A stretch of DNA of 64,000 bases from Geobacter sp. SVR (GTDB taxonomy: Bacteria; Desulfobacterota; Desulfuromonadia; Geobacterales; Pseudopelobacteraceae): NCBI RefSeq assembly GCF_016865365.1, contig NZ_AP024469.1, positions 620,001-684,000 of the forward strand. Reading direction: 5' to 3'. Below the pieces are notes generated by a model. The model was not told the DNA's origin. It did no database searches and saw only the letters and a list, made by a program, of their open reading frames with translations. Each line of letters starts with the position of its first letter. Position 1 is the first letter of the stretch. This document shows positions 15,455 to 21,754 of the stretch, piece after piece. Both the position numbers and the translations under genes were made by a program.

Positions 15455-16630
15455 ATGTTCGAATTCGATGAGACGATAGAGCAGGGCGCCATCATAAAGG
15501 TGATCGGGGTGGGAGGCGGCGGCGGTAACGCAGTCAACACCATGATCGCCGGCAGCATACACAAAGTCGATTTCATCGTTGCCAATACTGATGCCCAGTC
15601 GCTGCGCATCTCCAAAGCGCCGGTCAAGATCCAGCTCGGCCGCGAGCTCACCAAGGGGCTCGGTGCCGGTTCCAAACCCGAGGTGGGCAAGGACGCAGCG
15701 CTGGAAGATCGTGAGTATCTGCTCGAATCGTTGAAAGGATCGGACCTGGTTTTCATCGCCGCCGGCATGGGTGGCGGTACCGGTACCGGCGCTGCGCCGG
15801 TCATCGCCGAAGTGGCCCGCGAGTCCGGCGCCCTGACCGTGGGAGTCGTCACCAAGCCATTCACCTATGAGGGCAAGGCCCGGACCGAACAGGCCGAGCG
15901 CGGCATTGCCGACCTCAAGAAGCATGTCGATTCGTTGATCATCATCCCCAATGATCGTCTCATCAGCATGGCCAGCAAAAACATGTCCCTGTTCGACGCC
16001 TTCAAACCCTCCGATGATGTCCTGCGCCAGGCTGTCCAGGGTATTTCCGAGCTGATCACCTCCACCGGCATGATGAACCTGGACTTCGCCGACGTGAAGA
16101 CCGTCATGAGCGTGCGCGGCATGGCCATGATGGGCATCGGCACCGGCACCGGTGACAACCGTGCTGCCGATGCCGTCAACAGCGCCATTTCCAGCCCGCT
16201 GCTGGAGGACAACGATATCTCCGGCGCCAAAGGTGTGCTGGTCAATATCACCGGTTCGGAATCCATGACCATGGACGACTACAATACCGTCAACCGGATC
16301 GTGCACGAGAAGGTACATGCCGAGGCCAACATCAAGATCGGCGTCGTCAGGGACGACAACCTGGGCGAGACCATCAAGGTCACCGTGATCGCCACCGGTT
16401 TCGGGGATCGTTTCGATACGGAAAAGGGGCGCGAGTACCGTGCAAGTACGCTGCCGATCGCTGAAAAACCCTCTCCGGCCAAGAACCTGTTGGACATCCC
16501 CACTTTCAAGCGCGACCGTCAGCAGACCGAGAACGCCGTCCGCGTGCGCCCTGTCAGCTTTGCCTCCTACTCCGAGGAGGACGAGGATCAGTACGACATC
16601 CCCACGTTTCTGAGGAAGTCGGTCGACTGA
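15455..16630 (+). CDS. ftsZ: Cell division protein FtsZ
   Basis: Tubulin-like GTPase that forms the division ring. 391 residues. The nucleotide site includes 'VIGVGGGGGNAVN' near residue 12 and the tubulin signature GGGTGTGAAP from residue 106; the T7 loop has 'NLDFADVKTVM'. The conserved C-terminal peptide 'YDIPTFLRKS', which binds FtsA, is intact. A strong ribosome binding site AAGGGGGA precedes the ATG. A 169-base AT-rich gap separates it from ftsA, long enough to hold its own promoter, though I cannot pick one convincingly. A strong terminator follows. Confidence 0.98.
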   Translation: MFEFDETIEQGAIIKVIGVGGGGGNAVNTMIAGSIHKVDFIVANTDAQSLRISKAPVKIQLGRELTKGLGAGSKPEVGKDAALEDREYLLESLKGSDLVFIAAGMGGGTGTGAAPVIAEVARESGALTVGVVTKPFTYEGKARTEQAERGIADLKKHVDSLIIIPNDRLISMASKNMSLFDAFKPSDDVLRQAVQGISELITSTGMMNLDFADVKTVMSVRGMAMMGIGTGTGDNRAADAVNSAISSPLLEDNDISGAKGVLVNITGSESMTMDDYNTVNRIVHEKVHAEANIKIGVVRDDNLGETIKVTVIATGFGDRFDTEKGREYRASTLPIAEKPSPAKNLLDIPTFKRDRQQTENAVRVRPVSFASYSEEDEDQYDIPTFLRKSVD

Positions 16631-16673
16631 TTTCAACATTTTGTGCAGAGGCGGTTCAAACCGCCTCGCGTTT

Positions 16674-16719
16674 GCCCGGTTCTCCAACCTTTCCCCCTCC
16701 TGGAGAACCGGGCTTTTTT
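16674..16719 (+). terminator. Rho-independent terminator after ftsZ
   Basis: A perfect 12-bp stem, GCCCGGTTCTCC (16674-16685) with GGAGAACCGGGC (16702-16713), is followed by six T. A second smaller hairpin (16648-16667) lies just upstream. This marks the 3' end of the dcw cluster. Confidence 0.9.
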
Positions 16720-16912
16720 ATGTTTAAGTAACGGGGAGTAAATCCAAAACTGCAGACAGCCATAGAGATTCTTTGAGAACGCCGAGGGACAGTCCATTTT
16801 TAATCACGAAGCGGTGAGGAGGATAAAGGGATAACAGCTTGATGGGGGTCTGCGATCTCTGTGGCAGAGCTTTTCAAGTTGGATAGTGGCCGTGAGTGGG
16901 CGTTCTCGTGCT

Positions 16913-17722
16913 TCAGGCCGTTTCCAGCGTGACGGAAACGCTTGTCCCTGATGGGGAAGAGGAGACGGTAAGCGTCGCTCCGATTTGATCGGCGCGTTCC
17001 CGCATGATGCGCAGTCCCATGCCGGTCTGCTCCTGCAGCGGCCCCCGCAGGCCGCGGCCGTTATCGGCAACGCAAAGGCGCAGAACACCGTCCTGATGGG
17101 TCAATTCGACGGAGATAAGCCCGGCGTGGGCATGGCGGGCAGCGTTGGCCACCCCTTCCTGGGCGATGCGGTAAAGGTTGTCGCTGACCTCATGGGAAAG
17201 TGATGCGAAGTCGCCGGCGCAGGCCACCTCGATCGGCACGCCCCGCCTGGCAAGCAGTTCGCAGCGTTCGGCAACAGCCTGGTCCAGCGTGAGCTCGTTC
17301 AAATAGGAGGGGCGAAGCTGTTGGGCAATGTCCCGCAGTTCAGCCGCCACATCGGCAACCTCCCGGGCCAGCTGTGCGGCCAAGTGTTTCGGATCGCCGG
17401 CCCCCCCGTTGGCCAGCAACTGCAGATGCAGCGAGATGGCGTACAGGGACTGTCCCGCCCCGTCGTGCAGGTCACGATACAGTCGGGAGCGCTCCTCTTC
17501 CCGGACCAAGCCCTGGATGCGGTTATTCAACTCCTGCAACTGGGCCTGATAGCGATCGCTGATCGCCAGTGTTTTGTTGAATTTGCGCATGAGTGAGCGG
17601 TAATCGTCGGCCAGGGAGGCGTACTCGGCTTTCAGGTCAAGGGTTGGCCGGTCAGGGGCGGCAAGCACTTGGCCGAGGCGTGCCAGGACGACCTCCTCGA
17701 TGTTGATTCTGTCCGATGCCAT
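16913..17722 (-). CDS. Soluble sensor histidine kinase (HisKA_3 type) sharing a SiaD-like N-terminal module
   Basis: 269 residues, no membrane segment. The N-terminal part (about residues 31-75) is a helical module, followed by the dimerisation/phospho-acceptor motif 'YRDLHDGAGQSLYAISLHLQ' with His86, and a HATPase_c domain with 'NLYRIAQEGVANAARHAHA' and 'VADNGRGL'. This is the NarL-partner (HPK7-like) class. Residues 41-68 align without gaps to residues 65-92 of the neighbouring diguanylate cyclase (13 identities in 28: Y, L, R, F, K, L, I, D, Y, Q, Q, E, L, R pattern). It begins 9 bases after siaD and is probably in the same operon. No ribosome binding site is obvious and no response regulator gene lies beside it. 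Confidence 0.85.
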   Translation of the reverse strand: MASDRINIEEVVLARLGQVLAAPDRPTLDLKAEYASLADDYRSLMRKFNKTLAISDRYQAQLQELNNRIQGLVREEERSRLYRDLHDGAGQSLYAISLHLQLLANGGAGDPKHLAAQLAREVADVAAELRDIAQQLRPSYLNELTLDQAVAERCELLARRGVPIEVACAGDFASLSHEVSDNLYRIAQEGVANAARHAHAGLISVELTHQDGVLRLCVADNGRGLRGPLQEQTGMGLRIMRERADQIGATLTVSSSPSGTSVSVTLETA

Positions 17723-17731
17723 GGGGTGCGT

Positions 17732-18511
17732 CTAGTCCGCAGCCGCGACGATGCGGTCGCGTCCCCGGTTTTTGGCTGTGCAGAGCGCCTCATCCACCAG
17801 TTTGATGCACCCGTCAATACTCATTCCCGGTTTGAAGACTCCCACCCCGATGCTCATGGTGACGCCGATATGGGAGCCCTCCCATGGCACCTGATGCCTG
17901 CGTACCCCCTCCAGCAGTTTGCGAGCCACCTGATGCGCCTCCTGCAGGCCGGTCTCGGGAAGAACGATCAGGAATTCCTCGCCTCCCCAGCGCCCGCAGA
18001 TGTCTTCGCAGCGCAGGCAGGTACGCAGGGTGGCGGCCACCGACTTGAGAAGCCGGTCCCCTGCCAGGTGGCCGTGGGTATCGTTGATCTTCTTGAAGTT
18101 ATCCAGATCCGCAATCAGTATCGAAAATTCCTTGCCGTGACGTTCCGAACGGCTCTGCTCAGCCTGGAGCCGCTCCATGACATCCCAGCGACTGCCCAGC
18201 CCGGTAAGCAGATCAGTGCGTGCCATCATCTCCAGACGGGACTTGAGCTCCATCATCTGGGACTGATAGCTGTCGCCGATGGAGAGAACCTTGTCGAAGC
18301 GCCGCAAAAGCTTGTCATAGCTTGCCACAATCCGCTCCAGATCGGGTGCGAGCGGATTGCAATCGGCAATGCACTGCTGGAGCAGGGCCTGCATCCCTTT
18401 GAGGGCTTCGTAGTTGCCCTGCCACATACGTTTGACGGACGGGGGGCGTTGTGCAGGCTCAGTCCTGAACGGGATACTGCTGTCCGTATGTCTGCTCTTC
18501 CGGTGAGGCAT
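17732..18511 (-). CDS. siaD: Diguanylate cyclase SiaD (GGEEF)
   Basis: Makes c-di-GMP from two GTP. 259 residues, the same length as Pseudomonas aeruginosa SiaD. The N-terminal helical region (about 35-97) is the part that in Pseudomonas SiaD contacts SiaC; the GGDEF domain follows, with 'DLLTGLGSRWDVMERL', 'ADLDNFKKINDTHGH' and the active site G176-G-E-E-F180. An RxxD inhibitory site (R167-C-E-D170) lies five residues before it, so product inhibition is expected. There are no membrane segments. It starts 5 bases after the siaC stop. The assignment rests on domain type, length and gene order. Confidence 0.9.
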   Translation of the reverse strand: MPHRKSRHTDSSIPFRTEPAQRPPSVKRMWQGNYEALKGMQALLQQCIADCNPLAPDLERIVASYDKLLRRFDKVLSIGDSYQSQMMELKSRLEMMARTDLLTGLGSRWDVMERLQAEQSRSERHGKEFSILIADLDNFKKINDTHGHLAGDRLLKSVAATLRTCLRCEDICGRWGGEEFLIVLPETGLQEAHQVARKLLEGVRRHQVPWEGSHIGVTMSIGVGVFKPGMSIDGCIKLVDEALCTAKNRGRDRIVAAAD

Positions 18512-18516
18512 GGCGT

Positions 18517-18894
18517 TTATTCCTCGCAGGCAATGATGGAGAAGGGCAGGGTGACCTCTTCCTGGAACTCTTCCGCCAGATCGCGCGAGCGAGGATTTTC
18601 AGGGTCGTAGCGCCAATCTATGGAGATTCCGCTGCCCTTGGAGTGTGCCTCTTCCAGCAGGTCGAGCAGGTCGAGCATGCACTTGGTGCTGCTGCTGTTC
18701 ATGTAGCTGACGTTGATGTCCAGGAGAAGCTCGTTCTGTCCGGTAAGATATTCCTGCAACCAGCCGGTGACCGGGGCATAGAACTCGAACGAGTTTTCCG
18801 GATAGGATTCTCCGGTGATGCATAACCGCCGGGTGGCGGGATCAAAAGAAACCCCCGGCGTTGACAGTGATTGGGGTATGTCGAGCGTTGTCAT
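18517..18894 (-). CDS. siaC: SiaC-family regulatory phosphoprotein (DUF1987)
   Basis: 125 residues; in Pseudomonas the unphosphorylated protein binds and activates SiaD. Family features are 'SFDPATRRLCITGESYPENSFEFYAPV' near the N-terminus and 'LDINVSYMNSSSTKCMLDLLDLLEEA'; the segment Y64-MNSSSTK71 is where the phosphorylated hydroxyl residue is expected by analogy. The C-terminus is acidic. A GGAGGACC ribosome binding site precedes the ATG. It sits between siaB (its expected kinase) and siaD (its expected target), 13 bases after siaB. Confidence 0.9.
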   Translation of the reverse strand: MTTLDIPQSLSTPGVSFDPATRRLCITGESYPENSFEFYAPVTGWLQEYLTGQNELLLDINVSYMNSSSTKCMLDLLDLLEEAHSKGSGISIDWRYDPENPRSRDLAEEFQEEVTLPFSIIACEE

Positions 18895-18907
18895 CTGGCG
18901 GGTCCTC

Positions 18908-19435
18908 CTAAACCAGTGCTTTCAGGGTAAAAAAAGTGTGTTGCCCGTCGATGTCGCGCAGAGAGTACTCCAGCCTGCCGCTGGATCTCTTGGCCATTTC
19001 CATCAGGCCGATTCCGGCCCCCAGGGCTCCGGGCGCGACTTCGGCCCGCAGTTGCTGCCGGATGAGCTTTTTCAGCCCGTCCCGGTCCAGGGCGTTGATG
19101 TGGTCGATCCGCAGGCGCAGGTCGTCGACATCCTCGTTGAGGATCACGTTGCCGGAGGTGACGACATAGGCATCGTCCTGGCGGGCAATCAGGATGGTGG
19201 CCGAGCCGGACTCGCAGGTCATGTTCCTTCTGAAAAGGTAGTTACGGGCGTTCTGTGACATCTCGATGTAGATGGCGAATACATCCTGCACCGCCATGGG
19301 GGGGCTGTTTTCGGCCGACAGATGGTTTCTGATGGCGGTGCCGATTTCTTCGATGATGCTGTGGGAAAAGGGGCCGTTGAAACACAGAATGATGCCATCC
19401 TGCGAGAATTCGTCCCTGAGTTTGAAAAGGTCCAT
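18908..19435 (-). CDS. siaB: SiaB-family protein kinase (GHKL fold, DUF6272)
   Basis: 175 residues. In Pseudomonas SiaB phosphorylates SiaC and so switches off SiaD. The sequence has an N-box-like 'YIEMSQNARNYLF' and a glycine-rich 'ALGAGIGLMEMAKRSSG' typical of the small GHKL-like SiaB family. I chose the ATG at 19435 because GGAGGGA stands just upstream; an in-frame start at 19468 would add 11 residues. It begins 46 bases after siaA. Confidence 0.88.
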   Translation of the reverse strand: MDLFKLRDEFSQDGIILCFNGPFSHSIIEEIGTAIRNHLSAENSPPMAVQDVFAIYIEMSQNARNYLFRRNMTCESGSATILIARQDDAYVVTSGNVILNEDVDDLRLRIDHINALDRDGLKKLIRQQLRAEVAPGALGAGIGLMEMAKRSSGRLEYSLRDIDGQHTFFTLKALV

Positions 19436-19481
19436 TACTTCCCTCCTTGCTGGTGTCTTGTCCGGCACGGATCGCTGTTCT

Positions 19482-21461
19482 TCAATACTGGAAACCGATC
19501 AACGTCATATCGTCCCGCTGCGGGTATTCTCCCCGGTAATCATTGAGCAACCGTTCGAAGATGGCCGCCTGTGCCTGCATGTCGGCCTGTCCGTACGCGC
19601 CCAGCATCGTGCGGAACCGGTCGGAGCCGAAGCCGAAACCCTTGCGGCCGCCGGCCTGATCGAGAAGGCCATCGCTGCAGAGGTAGCATGAGTCTCCTGC
19701 GGATACAAGCAGTTCGTGATTGGTGTAGGCAAAATCGCTGCGGGAACTTCGATAGCCGACCCGACGGTGGTCGCCTTTGACCTCGCGTATCTCCCCGCGT
19801 GATACGATGTACAGGGAAAGCCCCGCCCCGGCGAAGACCAGGCGGCCCCCCTGCCGATCCACCAGGCAGAGTGCTATGTCGAGGCCCACATCCACCTGAC
19901 GCAGGTTGAGGGTCTTTCGGAGAACCCGGTGCAGCTCCGCAAGAATCCGGGCAGGATCGTCGGAGCAGATCATGTCGACCACATGGTTCAGCACTGCATT
20001 TACCGTCATGGTCATGAAGGCGCCGGGCACGCCGTGGCCGGTACAATCGATGACTGCTGTCAGGAAGTGGTCGGGGAAAGTGCGCAGGTAGTAAAAATCC
20101 CCCCCTACCATCTCTTTGGGGCGAAACAGAATGAAATGCCGCCCCAGGCAGTCCTCCAGCAATCGGCTGTCGGGCAGAATGGAAGACTGGATCATGCGGG
20201 CGTAGCGGATGCTCTCGGTGATCCGCTGCTGCGATGCTTCCAGCATGCGGTTCGCTGCCGCCAGTTCTTCGGTGCGCTCCCGCACCATTACCTCGAGGTT
20301 GTTGGTGTAATCGAGGATGGTTCTGGTCATGGCATTGAAGGTACCGGTCAGTTCCCCGATCTCGTCCTCCTTCACCACCTCCAGGGTGACGTCGTAGCGT
20401 CCGTCGGCCACCGCGCGGGAGGCGTCCGTGAGCCTGGTCAGTGGGGTCAGCACCATCCGGTTCATCAGGATGGCGATCGTTACGATCACCAGCAGCAACG
20501 AGATCAGCATGATGGCAATGATCGGAAGGAACTCCCGCACGCTCATGACACTGGCGGTGTCCACCAGGACGACGTTGAACCAGCCTACCCCCGGCATGAA
20601 CGAGACGGCGACGAGGTGATTCCTGCCGGCCAGGCGGGCCGGAAAGGCCTCCACCTCGCTTTTGCCGGCGGCAAGGGAGGCCAGTGCCGATCGCAGCAAC
20701 TCCTGCTGCGAGGGATCAGCCATCAGGCTGAAGATGGTGGTCTTTTTGGTGCTGTCCCTTTCAGTTGCGTTACGCTCGACGATGCTGCGGTCCTGATGCG
20801 CCTGGATCACGCCGGACCGGTCGATCAGGATGGCGGCGAGTCCCTTTTCCTTGGTATGGACAATTTCGTCAAGAAAGTCGGTGAGCGTGATGCCGCCGCC
20901 GCAGAGCCCGATCTTTTTCCCGTTTTTGTCCTTCATGACGGCATTGAGCCAGACTCTGGTCTCACGCAGGGTCGTATTGTAGTCCAGGTTCAAGGCATAG
21001 CTGTCAATCATGCGCAGCCCATCATAAAACCATTTGTCATCGGGTTTGGCAGGATCGAGCGTCATGAGCGGCTGCCCCTGCCGATCGGCTCCTCTGGTAT
21101 TGATATAATAGTTCCCCGAGGAAGCCAGGGCTATGAAACAGCTCCTGTCCCGAAAAAGGGTGCGGTAGCTCTCCAATTCGGTGAAGGCCCGCCCCTTTTT
21201 TACGGGATCGTGTTCCGCCAGGGCCCACTCTTTCAGGGCCGCATCATCCGCCATCTTTTGGGCCAGCACCACCTCCCGGTCGATCACCGAAATGATCCGG
21301 TTCTTTTCCAGGAGCGCCTCCTTGACCGCGAAGCGCCGGGCAAATTCAGCGATGATGCCGCTGGTGGAGGTGTAAAAGGCGGTGAGGGTGGCAATTCCCA
21401 CCGCCACCGAGACGGCGACAACGATGATGATGAATTTGGTTTTGAGCCGACGTATTCTCAT
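19482..21461 (-). CDS. siaA: SiaA: membrane sensor PP2C-type phosphatase (Cache-HAMP-SpoIIE)
   Basis: 659 residues, close to Pseudomonas SiaA. There are two membrane helices (about 9-31 and 308-332) flanking a periplasmic double-Cache-like sensor domain. A HAMP linker, a short coiled coil ('NLEVMVRERTEELAAANRMLEAS') and a SpoIIE/PP2C phosphatase domain follow. Metal-binding aspartates are visible in 'EMVGGDFYYL', 'AVIDCTGHGVPGAFMT', 'YLCSDGLLDQ' and 'QRDDMTLIGF'. In Pseudomonas, SiaA removes the phosphate from SiaC, allowing SiaD activation. The periplasmic ligand is unknown. It is the membrane input of the downstream siaBCD-kinase set. Confidence 0.9.
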   Translation of the reverse strand: MRIRRLKTKFIIIVVAVSVAVGIATLTAFYTSTSGIIAEFARRFAVKEALLEKNRIISVIDREVVLAQKMADDAALKEWALAEHDPVKKGRAFTELESYRTLFRDRSCFIALASSGNYYINTRGADRQGQPLMTLDPAKPDDKWFYDGLRMIDSYALNLDYNTTLRETRVWLNAVMKDKNGKKIGLCGGGITLTDFLDEIVHTKEKGLAAILIDRSGVIQAHQDRSIVERNATERDSTKKTTIFSLMADPSQQELLRSALASLAAGKSEVEAFPARLAGRNHLVAVSFMPGVGWFNVVLVDTASVMSVREFLPIIAIMLISLLLVIVTIAILMNRMVLTPLTRLTDASRAVADGRYDVTLEVVKEDEIGELTGTFNAMTRTILDYTNNLEVMVRERTEELAAANRMLEASQQRITESIRYARMIQSSILPDSRLLEDCLGRHFILFRPKEMVGGDFYYLRTFPDHFLTAVIDCTGHGVPGAFMTMTVNAVLNHVVDMICSDDPARILAELHRVLRKTLNLRQVDVGLDIALCLVDRQGGRLVFAGAGLSLYIVSRGEIREVKGDHRRVGYRSSRSDFAYTNHELLVSAGDSCYLCSDGLLDQAGGRKGFGFGSDRFRTMLGAYGQADMQAQAAIFERLLNDYRGEYPQRDDMTLIGFQY

Positions 21462-21510
21462 GCCGCTGTCCTCCCCCGTCCGTCACGGATCTTCAAATCC
21501 CGTCACGGTT

Positions 21511-21693
21511 TCAGGTGTTGTACTCATGGCAGTACATCATGACCAGTTTTGTCCGGATTTCGAGGCAGGTGGGGCAGAGGGTGCCGGCGTCCTGCCAGAC
21601 CTCCTCGGCCAGCCATTCTCCCGCCTTGGCGTCCTCGGACCGCTCGGCGGCAGCATCGAATGATCGCGAACAGATGCCGCAGATTTTCTTCAT
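21511..21693 (-). CDS. Small CxxC...CxxC protein upstream of siaA
   Basis: 60 residues with 'CGIC' at residues 5-8 and 'CPTC' near 40-43 plus a late Cys-His pair, suggesting a small zinc-ribbon-like fold. A good ribosome binding site (GAGAGG) stands 8 bases before the ATG, supporting a real gene. It ends 49 bases before siaA and could be the first gene of that operon. I do not recognise a named family; it may be a small conserved hypothetical protein of Geobacter relatives. Confidence 0.6.
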   Translation of the reverse strand: MKKICGICSRSFDAAAERSEDAKAGEWLAEEVWQDAGTLCPTCLEIRTKLVMMYCHEYNT

Positions 21694-21754
21694 CGTATGA
21701 ACCTCTCAATCCCTTATGGGGATAGTACGTGGCATTAAAAGATCGAGCCCGGCG

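Follow-up and report, generated by a model that had tools for sequence, protein, structure and literature searches.

Partner switching of the RsbW/RsbV/PP2C kind relies on a kinase-phosphatase pair that sets a small switch protein, and two-component kinases are usually thought to read signals via sensor domains of their own. The described system closest to the locus studied here is SiaABCD of Pseudomonas aeruginosa (7e6g). According to the available text of PMC8457831, SiaC in its unphosphorylated state binds to the helical stalk of SiaD, and this docking activates SiaD via stabilised dimers. In detail, the proximal motif of the stalk contacts SiaC through R74, K77, V78, R80, I81, S82, D83, R84, Y85, Q86, M88, R90 and D91, while T68, the phospho-residue of SiaC, bonds S82 and Q86 of SiaD with its side chain (PMC8457831). 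A different helical element, the S-helix, is presented in the accessible part of PMC1592074 as a connector of about 40 residues which precedes varied catalytic domains and carries an ERT signature in its central heptad.

The window analysed here, a stretch of 64,000 nucleotides taken as a whole, contains a run of five genes on the minus strand, siaA, siaB, siaC, siaD and a histidine kinase gene, with 5–13 bases between genes. The features are as follows:

19482..21461, minus strand: SiaA, HAMP and PP2C (SpoIIE) phosphatase (NF038263 620 bits, cut-off 700)
18908..19468, minus strand: SiaB family protein kinase (NF038262 190.2 bits, cut-off 85)
18517..18894, minus strand: SiaC (DUF1987) phospho-switch protein (PF09345 130.8 bits)
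17732..18511, minus strand: SiaD-type diguanylate cyclase, 259 residues, short form with one stalk motif and GGDEF (GGDEF 140.7 bits)
18230..18352, minus strand: proximal SiaC-binding stalk motif, SiaD residues 54–94, assigned by profile and by homology to 7e6g
16913..17722, minus strand: soluble histidine kinase, 269 residues, with stalk (11–69), HisKA_3 (77–140) and HATPase_c (180–267)
17516..17692, minus strand: kinase stalk, residues 11–69, of the SiaC-docking type and the distal SiaD kind, with ISDRYQ at 54–59

The gene order siaA-siaB-siaC-siaD, the SiaC switch and the docking motif on a stalk before the catalytic domain are all as in P. aeruginosa, as far as the available text of PMC8457831 describes that system. 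The window locus differs from it by a fifth gene, which places a docking stalk on a histidine kinase, by a SiaD with one motif and by a serine at the phospho-site of SiaC, where Ser67 aligns to Thr68 of P. aeruginosa SiaC (alignment to 6kko). With the RsbW/RsbV/PP2C switches it shares the kinase-phosphatase pair and the small switch protein, but SiaC is predicted here to control a two-component kinase and not a sigma factor.

By Pfam and NCBIfam, a PP2C SiaA, SiaB, SiaC and a stalk-GGDEF SiaD are all present in this one operon. SiaB scores above its subfamily cut-off; for SiaA, SiaC and SiaD the equivalog models are the top NCBIfam matches, yet the scores stay under the strict cut-offs (for SiaD, 216.4 bits with NF038266 over residues 59–254, cut-off 290; its match to 7e6g has E 1.8e-43). 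The whole genome holds a single SiaC match. The ftsZ gene (15455–16630; Pfam FtsZ) is convergent to the run. No promoter-like sites were found in 16600–21700, a result that is uninformative on operon structure.

The product of the fifth gene is a HisKA_3 histidine kinase with both domains above the Pfam cut-off (HisKA_3 45.7 bits, HATPase_c 53.5 bits) and with the conserved histidine and the N and G boxes in place (RDLHD with H86, N182, DNGRG at 220, GMGL at 234). In these domains and boxes it resembles other kinases of the NarL/DesK type; unlike them, it has no periplasmic, PAS or transmembrane part, and its input would be the SiaC-type stalk. The maximum 19-residue hydropathy is 0.85, so that no transmembrane stretch is found, and no Pfam domain exceeds its cut-off before HisKA_3. 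Judged from the sequence, the first 75 residues are the evident input of the kinase.

Kinase residues 41–68 (17602–17519, minus strand) align without gaps to SiaD residues 65–92 (18319–18236, minus strand), as the sequence-only reading had noticed; the identities amount to 14 of 28, one more than it had counted. Among 400 shuffles of the kinase N-terminus the maximum was 10 identities and none reached 13. Pairwise BLASTP of kinase and SiaD gives 15/36 identities (E 2e-8). When kinase segment 30–93 was searched against the whole 4.7 Mb genome, it matched itself, then SiaD at E 1.6e-5, with the next match at 0.44; the SiaD segment likewise retrieved itself and then the kinase alone (E 3.7e-5). 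The NCBIfam SiaD model matches kinase residues 31–74 (E 5e-5; 22.8 bits, far under the cut-off for whole SiaDs), and the stalk core at 17513–17635 matches the stalk profile at E 6.8e-20, this profile including the sequence itself. A single-sequence search of the whole kinase against solved structures returned 7e6g (SiaD) over residues 15–69 at E 0.23 only. Pairwise, genome-wide and profile searches taken together, homology of the kinase N-terminus to the SiaD stalk motif is present.

The aligned stretch is the SiaC-contact motif, as the earlier reading had proposed; in the available text of PMC8457831, however, this motif lies on the long stalk helix of SiaD and not on its short N-terminal helices, where that reading had placed the contact surface. 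ISDRYQ of the window kinase is exactly residues 81–86 of P. aeruginosa SiaD, where the window SiaD reads IGDSYQ; of the 13 contact positions, seven are identical to P. aeruginosa in each of the two window proteins. P. aeruginosa SiaD has two recognisable stalk motifs and the window kinase one. Among 18 diverse kinase stalks, D83 is conserved in all, I81 in 17, K77 in 16 and S82 in 15, and the contacts R84, M88 and R90 are poorly conserved. Conservation over the 13 contact columns together does not significantly exceed that of the nine neighbouring columns (permutation p 0.10; same 18 stalks).

A duplication of the docking stalk had been suggested as the origin of the similarity. The stalk is indeed common to both enzymes, but it was probably not copied from the proximal motif of the window SiaD, being of the distal type. 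Many SiaDs of the class are long forms of about 380–450 residues, in which some 150 residues separate two stalk motifs (genomes and loci are given below by our own G and L numbers). Kinase residues 11–69 score 75.5 bits against the distal (N-terminal) segment of 15 long SiaDs and 37.1 bits against the proximal one, and the window SiaD shows the opposite pattern (distal 34.2 bits, proximal 98.1 bits). This distal segment is absent from the short SiaD of the window. The kinase and one long SiaD of a relative are identical at 33 of 64 positions, starting from the first kinase residue. The sequences therefore make the distal segment of long SiaDs, and not the window SiaD's own stalk, the likely source of the kinase stalk. 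No DNA repeats of at least 18 bases occur in 16800–18600, so nothing points to a recent duplication. Kinase residues 63–267, for their part, are 56% identical to a 641-residue kinase of G239 which carries SBP_bac_3 and PAS before HisKA_3 and HATPase_c, and the pairwise match to this kinase ends at the start of the stalk. Because the stalk matches the distal SiaD segment and the kinase half this SBP-PAS sensor kinase, the kinase gene looks like a fusion in which a SiaD docking segment has replaced the sensory half of a NarL-type (HisKA_3) kinase. The regulator adjoining the G239 kinase is 63% identical to the one adjoining a stalk kinase of G236.

The stalk type varies among kinases. The G245 kinase is proximal (80.0 versus 33.1 bits), and those of G236 and G208 lean proximal, the latter slightly; in G181, as in the window, the kinase has a distal-type stalk and SiaD a proximal-type one. 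Between their two stalk motifs the long SiaDs carry a Cys-rich stretch (ICMYC...HGICPDC; L038:4134-5306, L039:6809-7990, L057:7696-8847 and others), which looks like a zinc site by its residues; no Pfam model matched it in the three examples scanned.

To map the stalk, 277 genomes of the class were screened first by the kinase stalk itself and afterwards by a 41-column profile built from 24 stalks, of which six belong to kinases. The stalk is found in 27 genomes and SiaC in 27, with both in 26. One exception, G089, has a weak stalk match (E 1.9e-4) and no SiaC, and is the one weak match among the 250 genomes without SiaC. The other, G249, has SiaC and no scoring stalk, and its GGDEF and SpoIIE neighbours carry a diverged stalk, as judged by eye. 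Much of this overlap is due to siaC and siaD lying together, and the kinases are the sharper test. Stalk kinases were found in the following genomes:

G236: HisKA_3 kinase, the closest relative of the window kinase, directly followed by a NarL/LuxR-type response regulator
G212: HisKA-type kinase directly after siaD
G181: HisKA-type kinase near siaD
G208: HisKA-type kinase directly after siaC, in the usual place of siaD, cut by the contig end before HATPase_c
G245: kinase-receiver hybrid directly after siaC, in the usual place of siaD
G260 and G267: HisKA-type kinases away from the sia operon, each genome having two SiaC genes

HisKA stays below the Pfam cut-off in five stalk kinases of the class (17.9–23.1 versus 26.9 bits), with HATPase_c well above it in four of the five. 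The second SiaC of G260 and G267 (L095 and L096, with L045 and L047) lies near a SiaA-like phosphatase with no SiaB match nearby; it may belong together with the unlinked stalk kinase of the same genome. In the phylum, PF09345 matches occur in six of 345 genomes, too few for a wider co-occurrence test.

SiaC relatives were then sought in 84,980 species genomes, where 217 stretches matched, 202 were confirmed and the best 80 were retained. This survey thus comprises the 80 loci of 202 closest to the window SiaC and is not a random sample, several genomes being the same as in the class set. Domains were called by home-made profiles grown from window and class proteins. Pfam, run on 18 class-locus and eight survey proteins (seven kinases and one GGDEF-HD-GYP protein), gave the same main domains as these profiles, plus a PAS that separates stalk and kinase in L159 and an Hpt in L165; by both methods alike, the L179 kinase has HisKA and no HATPase_c match.

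The kinases were tested with a profile seeded by 18 SiaD stalks and extended on 64 proteins, all of the GGDEF type. The test set comprised 58 kinases of at least 170 residues, with GGDEF and PP2C fusions excluded, at a threshold of E < 0.01. The profile matched 31 of the 34 kinases in siaC runs (30 at 0.001), none of the 24 other kinases and none of 1160 shuffles. The corresponding Fisher p of 2e-13 is overstated, since the species are related: 11 of the 31 positive kinases are from Azospirillum and seven from Paenibacillaceae (including Ammoniphilus). At E 0.01 no stalk was found in three siaC-operon kinases (L114 2376-4316, L144 2-1660 and L177 11696-13201).

Among these best 80 of 202 loci, a stalk is carried by GGDEF only in 44, by a kinase only in 17, by both in 14 and by neither in five; the kinase-only loci are a further difference from P. 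aeruginosa SiaABCD. PP2C, SiaB and SiaC are present in all 31 stalk-kinase loci, and by pattern the phospho-site is S or T in 79 of the 80 SiaCs and H in one. Besides Opitutia, Thermotogaceae, a spirochaete and Paenibacillaceae, the kinase-only loci include five Methanospirillum/Methanomicrobiales archaea (four metagenome bins and one cultured strain). Since the kinase families differ, their sequences suggest that the stalk was probably recruited several times. In two of the five loci without a catalytic stalk protein (L133 and L147) siaC is directly followed by a short protein that consists of a stalk and the Cys-rich stretch known from the long SiaDs, and in which no catalytic domain was recognised; no stalk was found within 700 bases in the other three.

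Forty-five of the 80 survey genomes were searched whole with the class profile, which gave 67 matches in 39 genomes, all at the SiaC locus by coordinates except two (G612:C56 and G614:C51); in the remaining six, all of them SiaC genomes, the stalks are diverged. Seven of ten kinase-only genomes searched whole have exactly one stalk match, the kinase, and three have none, their stalks being too diverged.

From these comparisons we propose, with a probability of about 0.78, that the SiaABC partner switch has this kinase as its second output and that docking of unphosphorylated SiaC on its stalk sets the kinase activity. SiaA (PP2C) and SiaB (kinase) would set the phosphorylation of SiaC Ser67, and unphosphorylated SiaC would dock on the SiaD stalk and, we infer, also on the kinase stalk of the same type, presumably with one SiaC per kinase protomer. 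Docking would then fix the kinase dimer together with the phase of its coiled coil and thereby switch H86 autophosphorylation, most probably to the active state; the phosphoryl group would pass from H86 to a response regulator that would be encoded elsewhere. One phosphorylation switch would thus probably drive both two-component signalling and c-di-GMP. With further kinases of several families carrying the stalk beside SiaC, the SiaC-regulated kinase class proposed by the sequence-only reading is the best genomic reading.

The geometry is consistent with such a transmission. A model of the kinase (12 sequences, mean pLDDT 79.8, pTM 0.52) shows an unbroken helix, 30–104, through stalk and H86, which lends modest support, as single-chain models favour long helices. 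If stalk and first helix of the phospho-acceptor domain are one helix, docking would fix dimer and phase. In addition, the stalk Asp and the phospho-acceptor His are separated by 22, 36 or 43 residues in 23 of 30 kinases, all 1 modulo 7; these kinases are related and hence represent fewer than 23 independent cases, although the spacing spans Azospirillum, Paenibacillaceae, archaea, Thermotogaceae, the spirochaete and the G245-type hybrid. Other spacings are 49 or 56 in five kinases (with an HQW box where seen) and 30 in two HisKA_3 kinases; four of the 34 have no recognisable acceptor motif up to 90 residues from the stalk. To pass a signal, a continuous coiled coil requires spacings that change by whole heptads, which is why SiaC docking is proposed to fix the dimer phase.

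The target of phosphotransfer would have to be sought at a distance, as no response regulator gene adjoins the window kinase. Nor does the genome hold a clear ortholog of the G236 regulator, its six relatives at E 1e-10 being at best 38% identical. The surroundings of the four best of these, judged by reading, gave no cognate regulator: those in L194 and L196 are beside other HisKA_3-like kinases, and one in L195 (3368-4018) is beside a divergent kinase of another type, with nothing to tie it to the window kinase.

The direction of the effect is a guess from SiaD, where docking activates. SiaC might dock on the kinase and yet inhibit it or merely act as a scaffold, in which case the kinase would work while SiaC carries its phosphate and SiaD is inactive. 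The sign is not given by sequence, and the phase of the stalk can turn a kinase on as well as off; activation is weakly favoured by the stabilised dimers through which SiaD is activated and by the predicted unbroken run of the kinase stalk into the acceptor helix. We regard inhibition or scaffolding as possible, although rather unlikely.

It is improbable that the stalk is merely a homotypic dimerisation element by which kinase and SiaD form or avoid mixed dimers, with no need for SiaC to bind the kinase. The helical nature of the two stalks would fit this, as would the 14 of the best 80 loci in which a stalk kinase accompanies a stalk GGDEF; but the 17 loci where the stalk kinase stands without a stalk GGDEF always have PP2C, SiaB and SiaC, genomes of the class without SiaC are practically free of the stalk, and the two stalks are of different types in the window and in G181.

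We give equally little credit to a kinase upstream of the switch, which would act on SiaA, SiaB or SiaC and be recruited to the complex by its stalk. The common operon and the want of an adjacent regulator gene and of a clear G236-type regulator would fit this arrangement. However, the G236 kinase, its closest relative, directly precedes such a regulator, four other stalk kinases (L143, L159, L165 and L184) carry receiver domains, and the window kinase itself lacks a sensor domain.

A generic coiled coil or an S-helix, although helical and placed likewise before GGDEF and kinase domains, with the length and position described in the accessible part of PMC1592074, is hardly credible: the former, which the sequence-only reading had named as a refuting outcome, is excluded by the profile searches of class genomes and survey kinases, whose matches are nearly confined to SiaC genomes and SiaC-locus proteins, and the latter by the absence of ERT or ERS from all 34 kinase stalks and by the N-terminal position in the window kinase, where the stalk does not lie between two signalling domains. 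The stalk also tracks SiaC, unlike an S-helix.

Beyond the reading of the kinase as a second output, we consider it somewhat probable that SiaC is a general plug-in regulator and the stalk a portable input, grafted several times onto unrelated outputs in bacteria and archaea and placing two-component signalling and c-di-GMP under joint command. The outputs would comprise diguanylate cyclases, HisKA_3 and HisKA kinases, kinase-receiver hybrids, archaeal kinases and GGDEF-HD-GYP proteins, and perhaps PP2C and HD-GYP proteins. If true, Ser/Thr partner switching, histidine kinases and c-di-GMP would be joined in one circuit, the window kinase being sensor-less, and a role would be suggested for DUF1987/SiaC where the locus has no stalk GGDEF, e.g. 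in Methanospirillum-type archaea and some Paenibacillaceae.

As the available text of PMC8457831 suggests that DUF1987 proteins may modulate adjacent proteins in general, the principle was foreseen there; stalk kinases were not, as far as the open-access literature shows. In that literature on SiaC, SiaB and partner switching we found no report of stalk histidine kinases under SiaC, and the accessible text of a paper on a REC-RsbW regulator (PMC12826045) does not name SiaC.

Several further arrangements were seen around SiaC. The archaeal contigs L130, L131, L132, L144 and L153 (Methanospirillum/Methanomicrobiales) carry siaA/B/C-like loci with a stalk kinase, i.e. partner switching in archaea. 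Downstream of SiaC in G249 (L094:3219-5324) lie genes for a GGDEF protein, a SpoIIE phosphatase and an HATPase_c_2 protein. The GGDEF protein and the phosphatase share the diverged stalk (IADRQQ / IGDKQQ); its occurrence on the phosphatase suggests, from sequence, that PP2C proteins may be outputs too. A second SiaC of G035 (L097:6368-7549) precedes an HD-GYP protein with a stalk-like N-terminus, HKIMERSDKRQRQEYDEL. A histidine kinase of G244 (L056:584-2053) has hydrophobic stretches at its N-terminus and, in its linker, half a stalk motif (E 1.8e-5); SiaC is on a different contig of this genome. Finally, the Firmicutes SiaC loci L168, L171-L174, L177, L178, L182, L185 and L191 contain a GGDEF and HD-GYP protein with a weak stalk, mostly in the order siaB-siaC-siaA.
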